A stretch of DNA of 64,000 bases from contig NZ_LIYD01000005.1 in the NCBI RefSeq assembly GCF_001278115.1, positions 4,063,813 to 4,127,812 of the forward strand, read 5' to 3'. A program made the translations under genes and the position numbers. Below the pieces are notes generated by a model that was not told the origin of the DNA, searched no databases, and worked only from the letters and a program-made list of their open reading frames with translations. This DNA is from Flavobacterium akiainvivens. GTDB taxonomy: Bacteria > Bacteroidota > Bacteroidia > Flavobacteriales > Flavobacteriaceae. Below, one piece after another: positions 31,303 to 60,241 of the stretch; the first letter of the stretch is position 1; the number at the start of each line of letters is the position of its first letter.

Positions 31303-31818
31303 TTACCATTTGGCCAAAGTGGCATTAAATATATCCTGTGTTATCCTTTCAAAAATTTCGTCAAGGGCAGTGTTAAGGGTTTCTCCGGTTAGCATTTTGT
31401 TGGCATCATAGTCATAGTAAAAACTAAACGGCTTCTCAAAATTGTCCTTTTCATTCTTTGTATTAGTAAACCTTACATTAACAGTAACGGTTAATCTGTT
31501 TTGTGCAGCACGCTGGTTAGCTGTTGCTGTCATGGGGGTTACCTTAAATTTGGTAATCTCGCCTTCATACACCAGGTCGCCACCGGTATTGTTCAGGCTC
31601 AGGTTAGTTTGGTTTTGCACCAGTTCCTGAAGCCTTTGCGTAAACCTGCGTTCTATACCCGGCTCAACAATTTCAGCATTATTCTGGAATGCATTAACCT
31701 GAAATGTTTTTACATCAGGATGAATGTTGCTGCCGCTTAAGCTATATTTATCATTGCCACTCCCACAGCCCAATATGGGCAGTACTACCAGCAATATGAT
31801 TATTTTTATTACACGCAT
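31303..31818 (-). CDS. LptE-family lipoprotein (copy 2)
   Basis: 171 residues, lipobox LGC (Cys18), then SGNDKYSLSGSNIHPDVK. Family pattern: PDVKTFQVNAFQNNAEIVEP, YEGEITKFKVTPM and NRLTVTVNVRFTN. LptE plugs the LptD barrel and helps to place LPS in the outer membrane. It is a close paralogue of the gene at 31909; the last ~20 residues (DEIFERITQDIFNATLAKW) are identical. The duplicated unit also includes about 40 bp of 3' flank. Which copy works with LptD is unknown. Confidence 0.88.
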   Translation of the reverse strand: MRVIKIIILLVVLPILGCGSGNDKYSLSGSNIHPDVKTFQVNAFQNNAEIVEPGIERRFTQRLQELVQNQTNLSLNNTGGDLVYEGEITKFKVTPMTATANQRAAQNRLTVTVNVRFTNTKNEKDNFEKPFSFYYDYDANKMLTGETLNTALDEIFERITQDIFNATLAKW

Positions 31819-31908: not shown

Positions 31909-32415
31909 TTACCATTTAGCCAAAGTGGCATTAAATATGTCCTGTGTTATCCTTTCAAAAATTTCGTCAAGGGCAAGGGTAAGTGTTTCCCTTGAAGGCA
32001 GGGCATCTCCGGCATAGTCATAGTAAAAGCTGAACGGCTTTTCAAAATCGTCTTCCTCTTTCTTTTTATTGGTAAACCTTACATTAATAGTAACGGTAAG
32101 CCTGTTTTGTGCAGCACGCTGATCTGCCGTGGCGGCCATAGGTGTTATGCGGAACTGTGTAATCTCTCCTTCATATATCAGGTCGCCACCGGTATTGGTA
32201 AGGCTCAGGTTGGTTTGGTTTTGTATAAGGTCTTGTAGCCTGATGGTAAAATCACGCTCTATACCCGGCTCTACCACTTCGGCATTATTCTGGAAGTGAT
32301 TAACCTGGAAGCTTTTAACATCGGGCGAAACGTTAGCCCCTGTAAACGAATATATGCCGCACCCGCTAAGTGTGGTTAGTGTTAACAGGGTAATAAGTAT
32401 TTTAAAAATGCGCAT
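31909..32415 (-). CDS. lptE: LptE-family LPS-assembly lipoprotein (copy 1)
   Basis: 168 residues from the ATG at 32415 (MRIFKILITLL). Lipobox LSGC, Cys19, then GIYSFTGANVSPDVK, the normal short spacing after the cysteine, whereas copy 2 has an extra segment here. Residues through the C-terminus align with copy 2 (FQNNAEVVEPGIERDF, QNQTNLSLTNTGGDL). Starts 4 nt after the sigma-54 activator, so it belongs to that operon. I take this as the ancestral copy from position and spacing; that is an inference. Confidence 0.9.
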   Translation of the reverse strand: MRIFKILITLLTLTTLSGCGIYSFTGANVSPDVKSFQVNHFQNNAEVVEPGIERDFTIRLQDLIQNQTNLSLTNTGGDLIYEGEITQFRITPMAATADQRAAQNRLTVTINVRFTNKKKEEDDFEKPFSFYYDYAGDALPSRETLTLALDEIFERITQDIFNATLAKW

Positions 32416-32419
32416 GGGC

Positions 32420-33724
32420 TTACAGGTCAAATTGTTTGATTTTTCTATATAATGTACGTTCAGATATGCCCAGTTCATCGGCGGCGGCTTTGCGCTTGCC
32501 TTTGTTGCGTTCCAGGGCTTTCTTTATCAGCTCAATTTCTTTTTCGTCAAGGCGCAGTATCTCGCTTTCTTCAACGGCATCGGCATACAGGTAGTGGCCG
32601 TCTTCATAATCATCATCGTCATGGTGGTCTTCAACAACGGGCTCCGGGCGGCTTACGGGCTGTGGTGTGTATACTTCCTGCCTGCGGTTGTTTTCCTCAA
32701 AAAAGCGGTTATGGTTGTTGTTTTCCCTGCTTTCAGGCTGGCCGTAAATACGCTGGATTAACCCTTTGTTGGTTTCCTGAACCCCGGCGGTATTGCCGTT
32801 TTGCATAAGGTCCATGGTAAGTTTTTTGAGGTCGTTAATATCAGCACGCATATCAAAAAGCACTTTGTACAAAATTTCGCGTTCGGTGCTAAAATCGCTT
32901 TCGGCTTTTTTGGTGCCAATCACGGCCGGAAGGTTGCTGCCCTCCTGTGGTAAGTAATTTGCAAGTACAGAAAGTGAAATATTACGGTTAGTTTCAAGTA
33001 CCGATATCTGTTCGGCAATGTTGCGCAGCTGGCGTATGTTTCCGCTCCAGCGGTAGCGCAAGAGCAGGCTAACAGCATCATCTTCAAGCCTTATGGGCGG
33101 CATTTTATATTTATGCGCAAAATCTGAAGAGAATTTACGGAACAGCAGGTGTATATCATCCTTACGGTCGCGCAGTGGCGGCAGGCCAATCTCCACAGTA
33201 CTAAGGCGGTAGTATAAATCCTCACGGAATTTGCCTTTCTCAATAGCTTCCTGCATCTGCACGTTTGTGGCGGCCACAATGCGCACGTTGGTTTTTTGTA
33301 CCTGGCTGGAACCCACCTTTATAAACTCGCCGTTTTCCAGCACGCGTAGCAGGCGCACCTGTGTGGTAAGGGGCAGTTCGCCTACTTCGTCAAGGAAGAT
33401 GGTACCGCCGTCGGCTACTTCAAAATATCCCTCGCGGGTAGAAGTTGCTCCGGTAAAGGCACCTTTTTCGTGACCAAAGAGTTCACTGTCAATGGTTCCC
33501 TCTGGTATTGCACCACAGTTAACGGCAATGTATTTACCGTGCTTTCGGTGCGAAAGGGCATGTATAATTTTCGGGATGCTTTCTTTACCCACGCCGCTTT
33601 CGCCGGTTACCAGTACTGATATGTCAGTTGGTGCCACCTGAATGGCCTTTTCAACCGCGCGGTTTAGCTTGGGGTCATTCCCTATAATTTCAAATCGTTG
33701 CTTTATGGCTTGTACGCTTTCCAT
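32420..33724 (-). CDS. sigma-54-interacting transcriptional activator
   Basis: 434 residues. AAA+ domain near 12-250: Walker A GESGVGKES, the sigma-54 contact loop GAFTGA, Walker B GGTIFLDEVGELP and the arginine region FREDLYYRLSTVEI. There is no N-terminal receiver or sensor domain, so activity may be set by expression or by a partner. A Glu/Asp/His-rich linker spans ~330-380, and a Fis-type helix-turn-helix near 395-434 (KRKAAADELGISERTLYRKI) binds DNA. First gene of the lptE-secG operon. Known synteny in Flavobacteria places it next to miaB; here the two are parted by an inserted GxxExxY element. Confidence 0.93.
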   Translation of the reverse strand: MESVQAIKQRFEIIGNDPKLNRAVEKAIQVAPTDISVLVTGESGVGKESIPKIIHALSHRKHGKYIAVNCGAIPEGTIDSELFGHEKGAFTGATSTREGYFEVADGGTIFLDEVGELPLTTQVRLLRVLENGEFIKVGSSQVQKTNVRIVAATNVQMQEAIEKGKFREDLYYRLSTVEIGLPPLRDRKDDIHLLFRKFSSDFAHKYKMPPIRLEDDAVSLLLRYRWSGNIRQLRNIAEQISVLETNRNISLSVLANYLPQEGSNLPAVIGTKKAESDFSTEREILYKVLFDMRADINDLKKLTMDLMQNGNTAGVQETNKGLIQRIYGQPESRENNNHNRFFEENNRRQEVYTPQPVSRPEPVVEDHHDDDDYEDGHYLYADAVEESEILRLDEKEIELIKKALERNKGKRKAAADELGISERTLYRKIKQFDL

Positions 33725-33735
33725 TTTGTTTTTTG

Positions 33736-33760
33736 TTTTGCCACGAATTGCACGAATTTC
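33736..33760 (+). repeat. left terminal inverted repeat of GxxExxY element
   Basis: 25 bp starting TTTTGCCACGAATT and ending CACGAATTTC. It matches the reverse complement of 34162-34186 at 23 of 25 positions. It lies 12 bp from the start codon of the sigma-54 activator. Confidence 0.8.
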
Positions 33761-33779
33761 TCTAATTTCTTCTTGAAGA

Positions 33780-34151
33780 TTATTTTATAATTCTTCTATG
33801 CTCCAGTGACTTGCTATTAAAATTGGCTATAATGCCAAGCTGTCCTCTGATAAGCCGAACATAATTCAACGTTTGTGCTACGTGAATGTCGACAATGCCG
33901 GTTACAGCTTTTACTTCTAAAATTATATCATCATACACTACAAAATCAGCATAAAACTTGTGAGGTAGTACTATGTCTTTATATTCAATAAAATACTCTT
34001 TTTCTCTCGCAAAAGGAATATTGTTTTTCCTAAATTCATATTCAAGAGCATCTTTATACACTATTTCTAAAAGCCCACCGCCAAGATGCTTATGGACTTC
34101 CATACAAATTCCAACTATTTTGTAATATTCTTCCTTGTGAATTAATTCCAT
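33780..34151 (-). CDS. GxxExxY protein (putative PD-(D/E)XK nuclease fold)
   Basis: 123 residues. The name motif appears as GLLEIVY near residue 26. Further on, FYADFVVYDDIILEVKAV has the Asp...Glu-x-Lys spacing of the PD-(D/E)XK nuclease fold, and HVAQTLNYVRL is the usual family helix. The gene alone fills a 451-bp segment bounded by 25-bp inverted repeats, inserted between miaB and the sigma-54 activator. The termini match a solo hairpin at 60177-60241. Family activity has not been shown biochemically as far as I know. I infer a mobile cassette whose nuclease-like protein may act on its own termini. Confidence 0.88.
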   Translation of the reverse strand: MELIHKEEYYKIVGICMEVHKHLGGGLLEIVYKDALEYEFRKNNIPFAREKEYFIEYKDIVLPHKFYADFVVYDDIILEVKAVTGIVDIHVAQTLNYVRLIRGQLGIIANFNSKSLEHRRIIK

Positions 34152-34161
34152 TTAAATTTGT

Positions 34162-34186
34162 GAAATTCGTGTAATTAGTGGCAAAA
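34162..34186 (-). repeat. right terminal inverted repeat of GxxExxY element
   Basis: Read on the minus strand it begins TTTTGCCACTAATTACACG. It shares GCCACTAATTACAC with the 60.2-kb hairpin. It ends 9 bp before the miaB stop codon. No target-site duplication was evident. Confidence 0.8.
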
Positions 34187-34194
34187 ATCAAATC

Positions 34195-35640
34195 TTACTG
34201 CATTTGGCTGTAACCTATAGCTTCTCCTATTAGGGTTGAAGTTGTACAGTCTGACGTTAATACATTTACAAAATCGCCTGGTTTGTAGTTTCCTTTCGGA
34301 AATACCACTGTGGTGTTCTGTGAGTTACGGCCGCTCCAGTGGGCATCGCTGCGCTTAGATGTTTTTTCAACCAATACCTCTACCACCTGGCCCACAAAAC
34401 GCTCTGTGCGCTTTAGTGCCATGCTTTGTTGCAGGTTAATGATTTCTGTAAGGCGGCGGTTTTTTACCGCGTCCGGAATATCGTCTTCCAGCTTACGGGC
34501 GGCAAGTGTACCGGGACGTTCTGAATAGGCAAACATAAAACCAAAGTCATATTTGCAATGCTCCATAAGGCTAAGCGTGTCCTGGTGGTCTTCTTCAGTC
34601 TCGGTAGGGAAGCCTGCAATCATATCCTGAGATAAAGATATTTCAGGGATAATGCGATATATGTTGTCTACCAGCGTTAGGTATTCCTCACGGGTGTGCT
34701 GGCGGTTCATTTCTTTAAGTATACGTGTGCTGCCGCTTTGCACCGGCAGGTGAATGTACTTGCATATATTATGGTGTTTGGCCATAACCTCTATAACCTC
34801 AAGGTGCATATCCTGCGGGTTGCTGGTACTGAAACGAAAACGCATTTTAGGGTAGGTGGTAGCCACCATATCCAGCAGTTGTGCAAAATCTACGGCTGTG
34901 GCTTTTTGCATTTCGCTGGCTTTTGCATAGTCTTTTTTAAGTCCGCCGCCATACCACAGGTAGCTGTCTACGTTTTGGCCGAGCAGGGTTATTTCTTTAA
35001 AGCCTTTATTCCAAAGGTCTTTAATTTCTTCCATTATGCTTTGCGGCTCGCGGCTGCGCTCACGGCCACGGGTAAACGGCACTACGCAAAACGTACACAT
35101 ATTGTCGCACCCGCGGGTGATTGATACAAATGCGGTAACGCCATTGCTGTTAAGCCTTACAGGTGCAATGTCGCCATAGGTTTCTTCTTTACTCAGGATA
35201 ACGTTTATGGCATCGCGGCCTTCTTCAACTTCTTTAAGCAGGTTGGGCAGGTCTTTGTAGGCATCGGGCCCCACAACCATGTCCACTATTTTTTCTTCCT
35301 CCAGGAACTGGCTTTTTAAACGTTCGGCCATACAGCCCAAAACGCCCACCTTCATGCCCGGGTTTATCTTTTTAACGGCGTTGTATTTTTCCAGCCTTTT
35401 GCGCACGGTTTGCTCTGCCTTATCACGGATAGAGCACGTGTTAACTAACACTAAATCAGCTTCTTCCAGGTTTTGTGTGGTGTTAAAACCTTCATTGGCA
35501 AGTATAGACGCAACAATTTCGCTGTCAGAAAAATTCATCTGGCAGCCGTAGCTTTCTATAAAAAGTTTTTTTGTGTTACCTTCCTTCTGCTCTAAAACAA
35601 GGGCGTTGCCTTGCTTGTTTTCTTCAATAATCTTTTCCAT
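34195..35640 (-). CDS. miaB: tRNA-2-methylthio-N6-isopentenyladenosine synthase MiaB
   Basis: 481 residues from ATG 35640. Methylthiolates i6A37 in tRNAs reading UNN codons. N-terminal MTTase domain with the cluster cysteines in ESYGCQMNF, VNTCSIRD and LGCMAE. Radical-SAM domain with RGCDNMCTFCVVPFTRG (CxxxCxxC). C-terminal TRAM domain (VGQVVEVLVEKTSKRS to VLTSDCTTSTLIGEAI). Promoter box TATCTTTG at 35672. Monocistronic here because a repeat element separates it from the next operon. Confidence 0.97.
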   Translation of the reverse strand: MEKIIEENKQGNALVLEQKEGNTKKLFIESYGCQMNFSDSEIVASILANEGFNTTQNLEEADLVLVNTCSIRDKAEQTVRKRLEKYNAVKKINPGMKVGVLGCMAERLKSQFLEEEKIVDMVVGPDAYKDLPNLLKEVEEGRDAINVILSKEETYGDIAPVRLNSNGVTAFVSITRGCDNMCTFCVVPFTRGRERSREPQSIMEEIKDLWNKGFKEITLLGQNVDSYLWYGGGLKKDYAKASEMQKATAVDFAQLLDMVATTYPKMRFRFSTSNPQDMHLEVIEVMAKHHNICKYIHLPVQSGSTRILKEMNRQHTREEYLTLVDNIYRIIPEISLSQDMIAGFPTETEEDHQDTLSLMEHCKYDFGFMFAYSERPGTLAARKLEDDIPDAVKNRRLTEIINLQQSMALKRTERFVGQVVEVLVEKTSKRSDAHWSGRNSQNTTVVFPKGNYKPGDFVNVLTSDCTTSTLIGEAIGYSQMQ

Positions 35641-35671
35641 ATACACTACTGCATGTGCGTTTTAAGAACGG

Positions 35672-60176: not shown

Positions 60177-60241
60177 TTTAGCCACTAATTACACTGATTA
60201 ACACAAATTAATTGGAGCAATTAGTGTAATTAGTGGCTAAA
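60177..60241. mobile_element. solo inverted-repeat hairpin (GCCACTAATTACAC type)
   Basis: The 19-bp arms 60177-60195 and 60223-60241 are perfect inverted copies (TTTAGCCACTAATTACACT) around a 27-bp centre. The core GCCACTAATTACAC is the same as the right terminus of the GxxExxY element at 34.2 kb. It has no coding content, so it looks like a non-autonomous derivative. Confidence 0.8.

Follow-up and report, generated by a model that had tools for sequence, protein, structure and literature searches.

The locus examined here raises the question of why a small nuclease-like gene should be enclosed by inverted repeats, and whether the gene and its repeats behave as one mobile unit. The sequence-only reading of the window (the whole 64,000-nucleotide stretch of Flavobacterium akiainvivens DNA that was analysed) had described a 451-bp segment with a GxxExxY gene as its sole cargo, and this was borne out: an arm, the gene and an inverted arm were read in the window at positions 33736-34186. 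The gene (33780-34151, minus strand) encodes a PD-(D/E)XK nuclease of 123 aa with E29, D69, E79-x-K81 and Q93-x3-Y97 intact. The left arm (33736-33768, plus strand) lies past the stop codon of the gene and consists of iterated units of about 9-10 bp, TTTTGCCACGAATT-GCACGAATT-TCTCTAATTT, and the right arm (34154-34186, minus strand) lies 2 bp upstream of its ATG and reads TTTTGCCACTAATT-ACACGAATT-TCACAAATTT on the minus strand. The arms are 33 nt each and 88% complementary, with 385 nt between them, and a repeat finder returned them as the sole inverted pair in the surrounding 1.4 kb. Two conserved neighbours, both named by the look of their sequence, flank the segment: miaB (34195-35646, minus strand), which was used as the host-tree marker, and a sigma-54 activator gene (32420-33724, minus strand), which starts 11 bp away from the left arm. 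The cassette nearly fills the gap between the miaB stop (34195) and the activator start (33724), with 8 and 11 bp left over. Directly downstream of the activator gene, two adjacent and very similar lipoprotein-like genes (31303-31818 and 31909-32478), which we take to be LptE-like, appear by eye to be a tandem duplication.

When GCCACGAATTNCACGAATT was searched in the window at up to three mismatches, five occurrences were found against 0.01 expected, three of them within the two arms and two within a gene-less solo copy of the same repeat type (60181-60237), a 57-nt hairpin located just past a terminator-like hairpin and with a computed DNA fold of -20.3 kcal/mol (z -10.2). In the whole genome, a 24-nt arm sequence gave 24 copies at up to three mismatches, including the two window arms, and its reversed control gave none. 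All 20 solo elements examined in this genome with a relaxed pattern had an inverted partner within 220 nt, and nine of them were 57-60 nt long; the five solo copies that were folded all formed hairpins, as follows from the way in which they were found. Ends of solo elements abutted a terminator-like hairpin in 4/40 cases compared to 31/2000 random positions, a comparison that supports no inference because elements and terminators are both likely to lie between genes. The genome carries three GxxExxY genes, namely the window copy with arms of the CACGAATT type, a second one (L001) with arms of a CACAGAG type, and a third (L002) for which the scoring test found no arm pair, although palindromes of a CACAAAG type form an array next to its start.

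The window protein matched TIGR04256 (GxxExxY) with 128.1 bits (curated cut-off 35) and PF13366 (PDDEXK_3) with 113.4 bits (curated cut-off 22), and no other domain of Pfam or NCBIfam at E<=1. Its top match was a protein of F. rivuli (86%), and the best 28 of 80 named matches all came from Flavobacterium. Among 233 homologues, the active-site residues E29, D69, E79 and K81 were present in 228, 231, 230 and 232, respectively, and each of these four, as well as Q93 and Y97, was conserved in 224-232 of them. RecB/Cas4-type nucleases carry their motifs in the same order, E, D, ExK and QxxxY. An AlphaFold model of the protein (pLDDT 94) gave as top match with Foldseek and VIA-align the Cas4 nuclease SSO0001 (4ic1; E 1.2e-4; Z 10.0, 3.1 A over 98 residues). 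Numerous PD-(D/E)XK nucleases came next with Z of about 7 or less, values that would carry little weight on their own. The predicted fold is Cas4/RecB-like, although the structure tables leave other folds possible. By sequence, no solved relative was found at E<=1, PADLOC gave no match at E<=1, and PHROGs gave weak matches only (E>=0.027); two paralogues in the same genome matched Cas4 profiles weakly, with best E of 0.0011 and 0.0037. At a reverse-transcriptase locus described in the available text of PMC8934634, a cas4 gene appeared by CRISPRone to be adjacent where the authors' own pipeline gave a GxxExxY domain only, an overlap that fits the Cas4-like fold found here. The dN/dS values of GxxExxY were 0.027-0.148 in 11 of 12 pairs and 0 in the other, compared to 0.006-0.041 for miaB; by these substitution ratios, selection on GxxExxY is purifying and weaker than that on miaB.

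The family was found in 152 of 296 genomes sampled across the phylum, and each of 61 Flavobacterium genomes had between 0 and 9 copies. Flanking arms were scored as the best ungapped inverted repeat between the 400-bp flanks of a gene (match +1, mismatch -2), a score of at least 16 being taken as strong. The sample comprised 200 GxxExxY genes (3 from the window's own genome, 68 from its genus or order, 49 from the phylum and 80 from named genome contigs), mainly best-scoring rather than random and including many orthologues. Strong arms were detected at 121/200 of these genes, whereas the same score was reached by only 2/699 ORFs elsewhere in these loci, which Pfam identifies as a phosphatase and an amylase, and by 0/600 dinucleotide-shuffled flanks. 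By group, strong arms were present at 2/3, 36/68, 18/49 and 65/80 genes, respectively, so that 56/120 remained without the named-contig loci. A strong pair was absent in 79/200 genes; decayed arms below the cut-off were visible by eye at L169, L228 and L254. The arms are made of iterated CAC-type units of 8-10 bp, and their self-identity peaked at lags of 9 and 10 nt (0.41 and 0.44) compared to 0.29 in shuffled arms. At five loci (L264, L269, L270, L278 and L315) the GxxExxY gene is broken or partial and is still bounded by arms.

Outside Bacteroidota, the few loci examined were an Acidobacteria MAG (L215, score 16), an Ignavibacteriae MAG (L212, score 12) and four of the eight plasmid-borne members. 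Three of those eight had scores of at least 16, in Gemmatirosa (where the gene is in two frames), Bernardetia and Bacteroides; the Treponema member had an 11-nt arm pair, the Sphingomonas member a single arm by eye, and those of Persicobacter, Prevotella and a Fusobacteria record no clear arms. On the 880-kb replicon of Sphingomonas parapaucimobilis (L325), GxxExxY lies between fabD and fabG at spacings of 33 and 2 bp, with one visible arm. The sequence-only reading had expected a cassette of this kind to share inverted termini with other GxxExxY genes, and had taken sister loci that keep the gene with unrelated flanks as evidence to the contrary. Such termini were found at most of the genes sampled, and the flanks at sister loci were matched arms, though of other sequence types.

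The relation between arm sequence and protein was followed in 142 armed genes (score >=16, de-duplicated at 95%). Between genomes, protein identity correlated with arm similarity (Spearman 0.59; the largest of 999 permutations gave 0.10, Mantel p 0.001), and mean arm similarity rose from 0.21 at less than 30% protein identity to 0.77 at 80-95%. For 37 of the 40 genes with an armed paralogue read from the same genome, the arms were nearer to those of the closest homologue elsewhere than to those of any such paralogue. Therefore, the protein is a better guide to arm type than the genome is. The period of the units can also match, as arms with 8-nt spacing are present both at the gene L319 and at L295, the homologue nearest to it (79%). 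Part of this correlation is due to shared descent of orthologous sites, which the comparison of miaB and GxxExxY trees separates.

The sequence-only reading had held that the gene interrupts the usual neighbourhood of miaB and the activator gene. This was not supported, as GxxExxY lies between these two genes in 72/80 named loci of relatives of the window protein, loci that were found via the gene. Among the 30 best-matching miaB-site loci, the window included, the gene was present in 21 and absent in nine, of which L237 and L240 show by eye an apparent remnant arm. A recent local insertion was rejected, as the miaB site is the usual home of the gene across Flavobacterium. In three loci without the gene (L229, L238 and L239), the gap holds palindromes of other families by eye, with units GTTTCAGGTTTCAAGTTTCAGG.../AACCTGAAAC and AGCCCCCTAACCCCC ... 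GGGGGTTAGGGGGCT, which may be parts of additional repeat systems. Other GxxExxY clusters (L088/L090/L118, L095/L096/L101, L106/L107/L124 and L120-L123) are likewise flanked on each side by neighbours that are conserved across genomes, so that the miaB site is one of several.

At least four arm types occupy the miaB site. Arm-type changes were counted on trees of 45 intact loci, the other six of 51 having been left out for broken or short genes; the activator windows comprised 37 rows. The GxxExxY protein tree required four changes, with a possible minimum of three and none of 200 shuffles as low as four, whereas the miaB tree required 15. Strong support was present on only 6/40 inner branches of the GxxExxY tree. 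With windows of 345 bp, 13, 16, 14 and 15 changes were counted along miaB (15 in the window abutting the cassette), 5 in GxxExxY DNA, and 12 and 12 in the activator gene; at third positions, GxxExxY required 7 changes and the end of miaB 16. When close hosts were compared (miaB identity >=0.87, 139 of 990 pairs), GxxExxY identity was 0.889 in the 74 pairs with the same arm type and 0.706 in the 65 pairs with different types, miaB identity being equal. In distant hosts (miaB identity <0.78), the corresponding values were 0.723 (99 pairs) and 0.718 (327 pairs), so that arm type there is irrelevant to gene identity and the types are old or coarse. The difference between the two trees indicates that whole arm-gene-arm cassettes have been swapped between species at this one position, the gene being replaced together with its two arms and the borders of the exchanged segment falling near the arms. 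The cassette is thus very probably an exchangeable unit. This agrees with the mobile half of the proposal of a mobile or self-mobilised cassette; for the other half, the nuclease would have to be what mobilises it.

The turnover of these sites was followed in a pair of sister genomes, G401 and G567, which have 92.6% identity over 194 kb of aligned DNA and whose contigs are colinear. Of the five GxxExxY genes in G567, one (L319) bears arms with a period of 8 nt, and no such arms were found at any of the three in G401; exact matches to the 8-nt motif numbered 58 in G567 and 13 in G401. In the G567 stretches, 14 sites of the 8-nt type were located (<=1 mismatch), and the flanks of 13 of them could be mapped in G401. 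The same type was present in G401 at three of the 13. At five of the other ten, G401 has by motif a 9-nt or CACAGATT-type element, compared to a background of 9/210 intergenic gaps with such elements in 400 kb of G401 (p 3e-5); at another (L369), it carries a different GxxExxY cassette (L316); and at the last four it has other sequence, which at L365 and L381 consists by eye of other palindromes. In the reverse direction, 11 sites of the 9-nt type in G401 were mapped in G567, where five hold the 8-nt type (one of them alongside the old type), four retain an old-type element (one diverged) and no element was recognised at the remaining two. At these sites, the flanks are intact while the intergenic DNA between them has been rewritten. 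Target duplications and empty sites, which the sequence-only reading had proposed to look for, did not appear in the sister-pair alignments: no duplication and no simple empty site were seen, the sites being rewritten rather than empty. The gene found only in G567 is what would indicate which hairpin type is the newer one.

Comparison of the loci L247 and L255 of G401 and G567 revealed three near-identical patches in 5.7 kb, one of which is the cassette. The patches are 300-500 bp almost without differences in DNA of about 92% identity. They represent recent recombination between species, and as the region holds two patches besides the cassette, ordinary recombination also acts there. A recent transfer of the cassette, as suggested by dS alone in this pair (0.015 for GxxExxY and 0.439 for miaB), is weakened by these two other patches.

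Copies of the repeat were then counted across genomes. In 61 Flavobacterium genomes, GCCACGAATTNCACGAATT at up to two mismatches had from 0 to 213 copies per genome; more than 10 copies were present in 21 of the 50 genomes with a GxxExxY gene, and 39 genomes of other genera had at most one. In the 11 Flavobacterium genomes in which no GxxExxY gene was detected, the copies did not exceed seven, although the small size of these genomes (1.8-3.8 Mb) may contribute to the low counts. The expected dispersal of solo termini through the genome was thus observed, as was their rarity where GxxExxY was not found. In the 80 named 8-kb loci, no complete solo pair and two single arms were found away from the gene.

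Classification of 73 genomes by the arm type at the miaB site gave 20 with type A, 18 with B, 9 with C, 4 with D and 3 with other arms, the remainder having no gene at this site (9) or no gene at all (10). Types A-D of the 51 genomes were set by eye, those of L231, L233 and L274 being the least clear, and copy counts were summed by hand and include the two arms of the cassette itself. The median number of A-type copies (<=1 mismatch) was 65 in A genomes compared to 1, 7 and 0 in B, C and D genomes, respectively (Mann-Whitney p 4e-7 for A against B, C and D, ignoring relatedness and genome size), and 0 in genomes with other arms, without the gene at the miaB site or without any gene. Among genomes with at least four copies, the commonest of three types was the own arm type in 19/19 A, 8/14 B and 8/9 C genomes. 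Discrimination was poorer for the C and B motifs: the median number of C-type copies was 31 with C arms and 21 with A arms (p 0.25), and that of B-type copies was 6 with B arms and 4 with A arms (p 0.03).

Several genomes did not follow this pattern. G509, with B arms, has 132 A-type copies and no A-armed gene among those read; G401 and G567, with C arms at the miaB site, have 56 and 42 A-type copies, none of the genes read from G401 having A arms and the only A-like gene of G567 being that with 8-nt spacing; G516 has 40 A-type copies and a sole GxxExxY gene without arms; G006 and G444 have 38 and 16 A-type copies and no A-armed gene among the genes read; and in G044, with eight B-type copies, no GxxExxY gene was found. 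The sequence-only reading had asked whether solo termini occur only in genomes with the gene, and this stands as a trend, with G516, G509 and G044 as exceptions. Repeats that outlive their gene would explain the mismatched genomes, and so would a mover other than GxxExxY. That arms, GxxExxY genes and dispersed repeats are associated can hardly be doubted.

Cargo carriage by phages or plasmids was rejected as an origin: with the L029 protein as query, matches were found in 0/50,697 phage records and in 8/72,556 plasmid records, all eight of which were called non-mobilizable. A search of viral contigs, the reach of which extends to close relatives, returned no relative of the window protein. In the literature searched, TIGR04256 was not named, the available passages naming GxxExxY do not mention repeats, the strings of the arm repeats occurred only in works that are unrelated by title, and no title or opening of an abstract in broader searches names these repeats. 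This suggests that the gene-plus-repeat system is undescribed in the literature searched.

Taking these data together, the window cassette is probably a member of a widespread group of repeat-associated nuclease cassettes, in which the nuclease spreads or replaces its cognate repeats. Non-autonomous copies of the arms, placed head to head round a short loop, make up the genome-wide hairpins. From the observed association of arms and gene, and from their exchange as a unit, we infer both the cleavage and the role of the nuclease as the driver. The nuclease would recognise the units of its own arms, one unit per approximately one helical turn, and would cut at these units or at the hairpin that they form when single-stranded. 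The break would be repaired with, or rejoined to, another copy of an arm pair, with or without the gene. Such a repair step would spread the cognate repeat and would tend to overwrite older repeats at existing sites. In the same way, a foreign cassette would replace a resident one, with preference for sites that already hold related repeats. One repair rule would then explain both the cassette exchange at miaB and the hairpin turnover in the sister pair. The chances are about even for a wider proposal, in which REP-type systems arose a second time and independently, driven by the GxxExxY proteins of several bacterial phyla. These would be Cas4-fold nucleases that read hairpins of iterated CAC units, spread their own repeat by overwriting those already present and, as arm-gene-arm cassettes, home into sites occupied by rivals.

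Other explanations were weighed against this nuclease-driven spread. Another enzyme, or host recombination, could move the repeats, with GxxExxY either carried along as a passenger or acting as a nuclease that polices the repeats by trimming the hairpins or cruciforms they form, and being kept since the arms tie it to a repeat family. This is unlikely, though with a real chance of being right: among the genes read from G516, G509 and G401, none has arms matching the repeats found there, purifying selection would also be expected from a host function, and the family is rare on plasmids and absent from the phage records searched, but a passenger accounts poorly for the rarity of such arms at the control genes and for an arm sequence that tracks the GxxExxY subfamily and not the genome. 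It is quite unlikely that the cassettes are alleles of a variable locus between which ordinary homologous recombination takes place, with the arms as allele-linked regulatory hairpins; such a locus might be subject to diversifying selection, like that of a defence gene. The near-identical patches shared by G401 and G567, as well as the strong divergence of alleles (identity 0.706) at a single site among closely related hosts, would be expected from such exchange. However, the adjoining 345 bp on each side do not track the cassette (12-15 changes vs 5), so that crossovers would be needed repeatedly within a few hundred bp on both sides; the dozens of dispersed hairpins of the same type would be left unexplained; and, as regards defence, the window protein lacks a PADLOC match and its two paralogues resemble Cas4 models weakly.

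Vertical inheritance of a gene flanked by transcription terminators or mRNA-stability hairpins is very improbable. The conservation of the miaB site across the genus and the strong folding of solo arm pairs are in line with it, whereas the disagreement between host and cassette trees is not, and on both strands of the window arms the T run comes before the palindrome. An intrinsic terminator at the arms was rejected, since a consensus scan of 33650-34300 gave one match, inside the gene, and none at the arms. Scarcely any weight can be given to a conventional insertion sequence with MITE derivatives and target-site duplication; inverted ends, a single ORF and short gene-less copies would all suit such an element, but neither a duplication nor an empty site was seen at the aligned sister-pair sites, the protein has no other domain in the profile searches, and the arms are built of iterated units. 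The driver reading, in which the nuclease acts on its own repeats, offers a testable function for an uncharacterised nuclease family and a possible origin for CAC-type intergenic repeats, which are not described in the literature searched. If it is true, REP-type repeat dispersal has evolved at least twice with unrelated enzymes, cognate pairs of gene and repeat that vary in unit sequence and period would form a panel for studying how a 120-residue nuclease reads DNA, and the exchange of cassettes at a fixed site would model the competition between homing elements.

Among known systems, Cas4 shares with GxxExxY the RecB-type PD-(D/E)XK fold, as predicted by the model, and the order of the motifs. 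Cas4 requires four Fe-S cysteines, whereas the window protein has one and hence no such set; its immediate neighbours are miaB and the activator gene and not cas genes, and it is bounded by its own repeats. PD-(D/E)XK homing enzymes exist, such as I-Ssp6803I, and as in homing endonucleases a nuclease gene displaces the allele present at a fixed site and travels together with its borders. In contrast to them, GxxExxY is intergenic, rather than within an intron, an intein or a coding gene, and is tied to dispersed repeats. TIRtrons are described in the available text of PMC3733652 as RAYT-like genes within terminal inverted repeats. Short non-autonomous copies with inverted ends are a feature common to MITEs, TIRtrons and the system described here, in which, however, the enzyme is unrelated and no target duplication was seen at the sister-pair sites aligned.

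The closest likeness is to REPtrons, in which, according to the available text of PMC8266576, PMC3116915 and PMC8049555, a RAYT nuclease gene is flanked by an inverted short palindromic repeat, and the REP repeats are dispersed as hairpin-capable inverted doublets, co-evolved with their cognate gene and rare on plasmids; the available text of PMC8266576 reports no evidence of mobility of tnpA_REP. The resemblance to REP-associated transposase systems noticed in the sequence-only reading is supported, as GxxExxY genes are flanked by inverted repeat copies, the repeat is dispersed as hairpin doublets, genes and arms form cognate pairs, and the genes are rare on plasmids. The differences are that the GxxExxY enzyme is a PD-(D/E)XK protein, whereas that of REPtrons is an HUH/tyrosine enzyme of the IS200/IS605 group; that the arms are iterated CAC units without the GTAG tag of REPs, GTAG or CTAC being present in 13/284 arms (with 8-nt margins); and that RAYT genes are mostly single-copy and vertically inherited, whereas GxxExxY genes occur as several paralogues per genome and are exchanged between species. 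With neither the HUH enzyme nor the GTAG tag, and with a gene that is exchanged, the system is REPtron-like in its working and not a REPtron. These comparisons suggest that it may represent an undescribed kind of mobile DNA, in which a repeat is paired with a dedicated nuclease unrelated to the RAYT enzymes.
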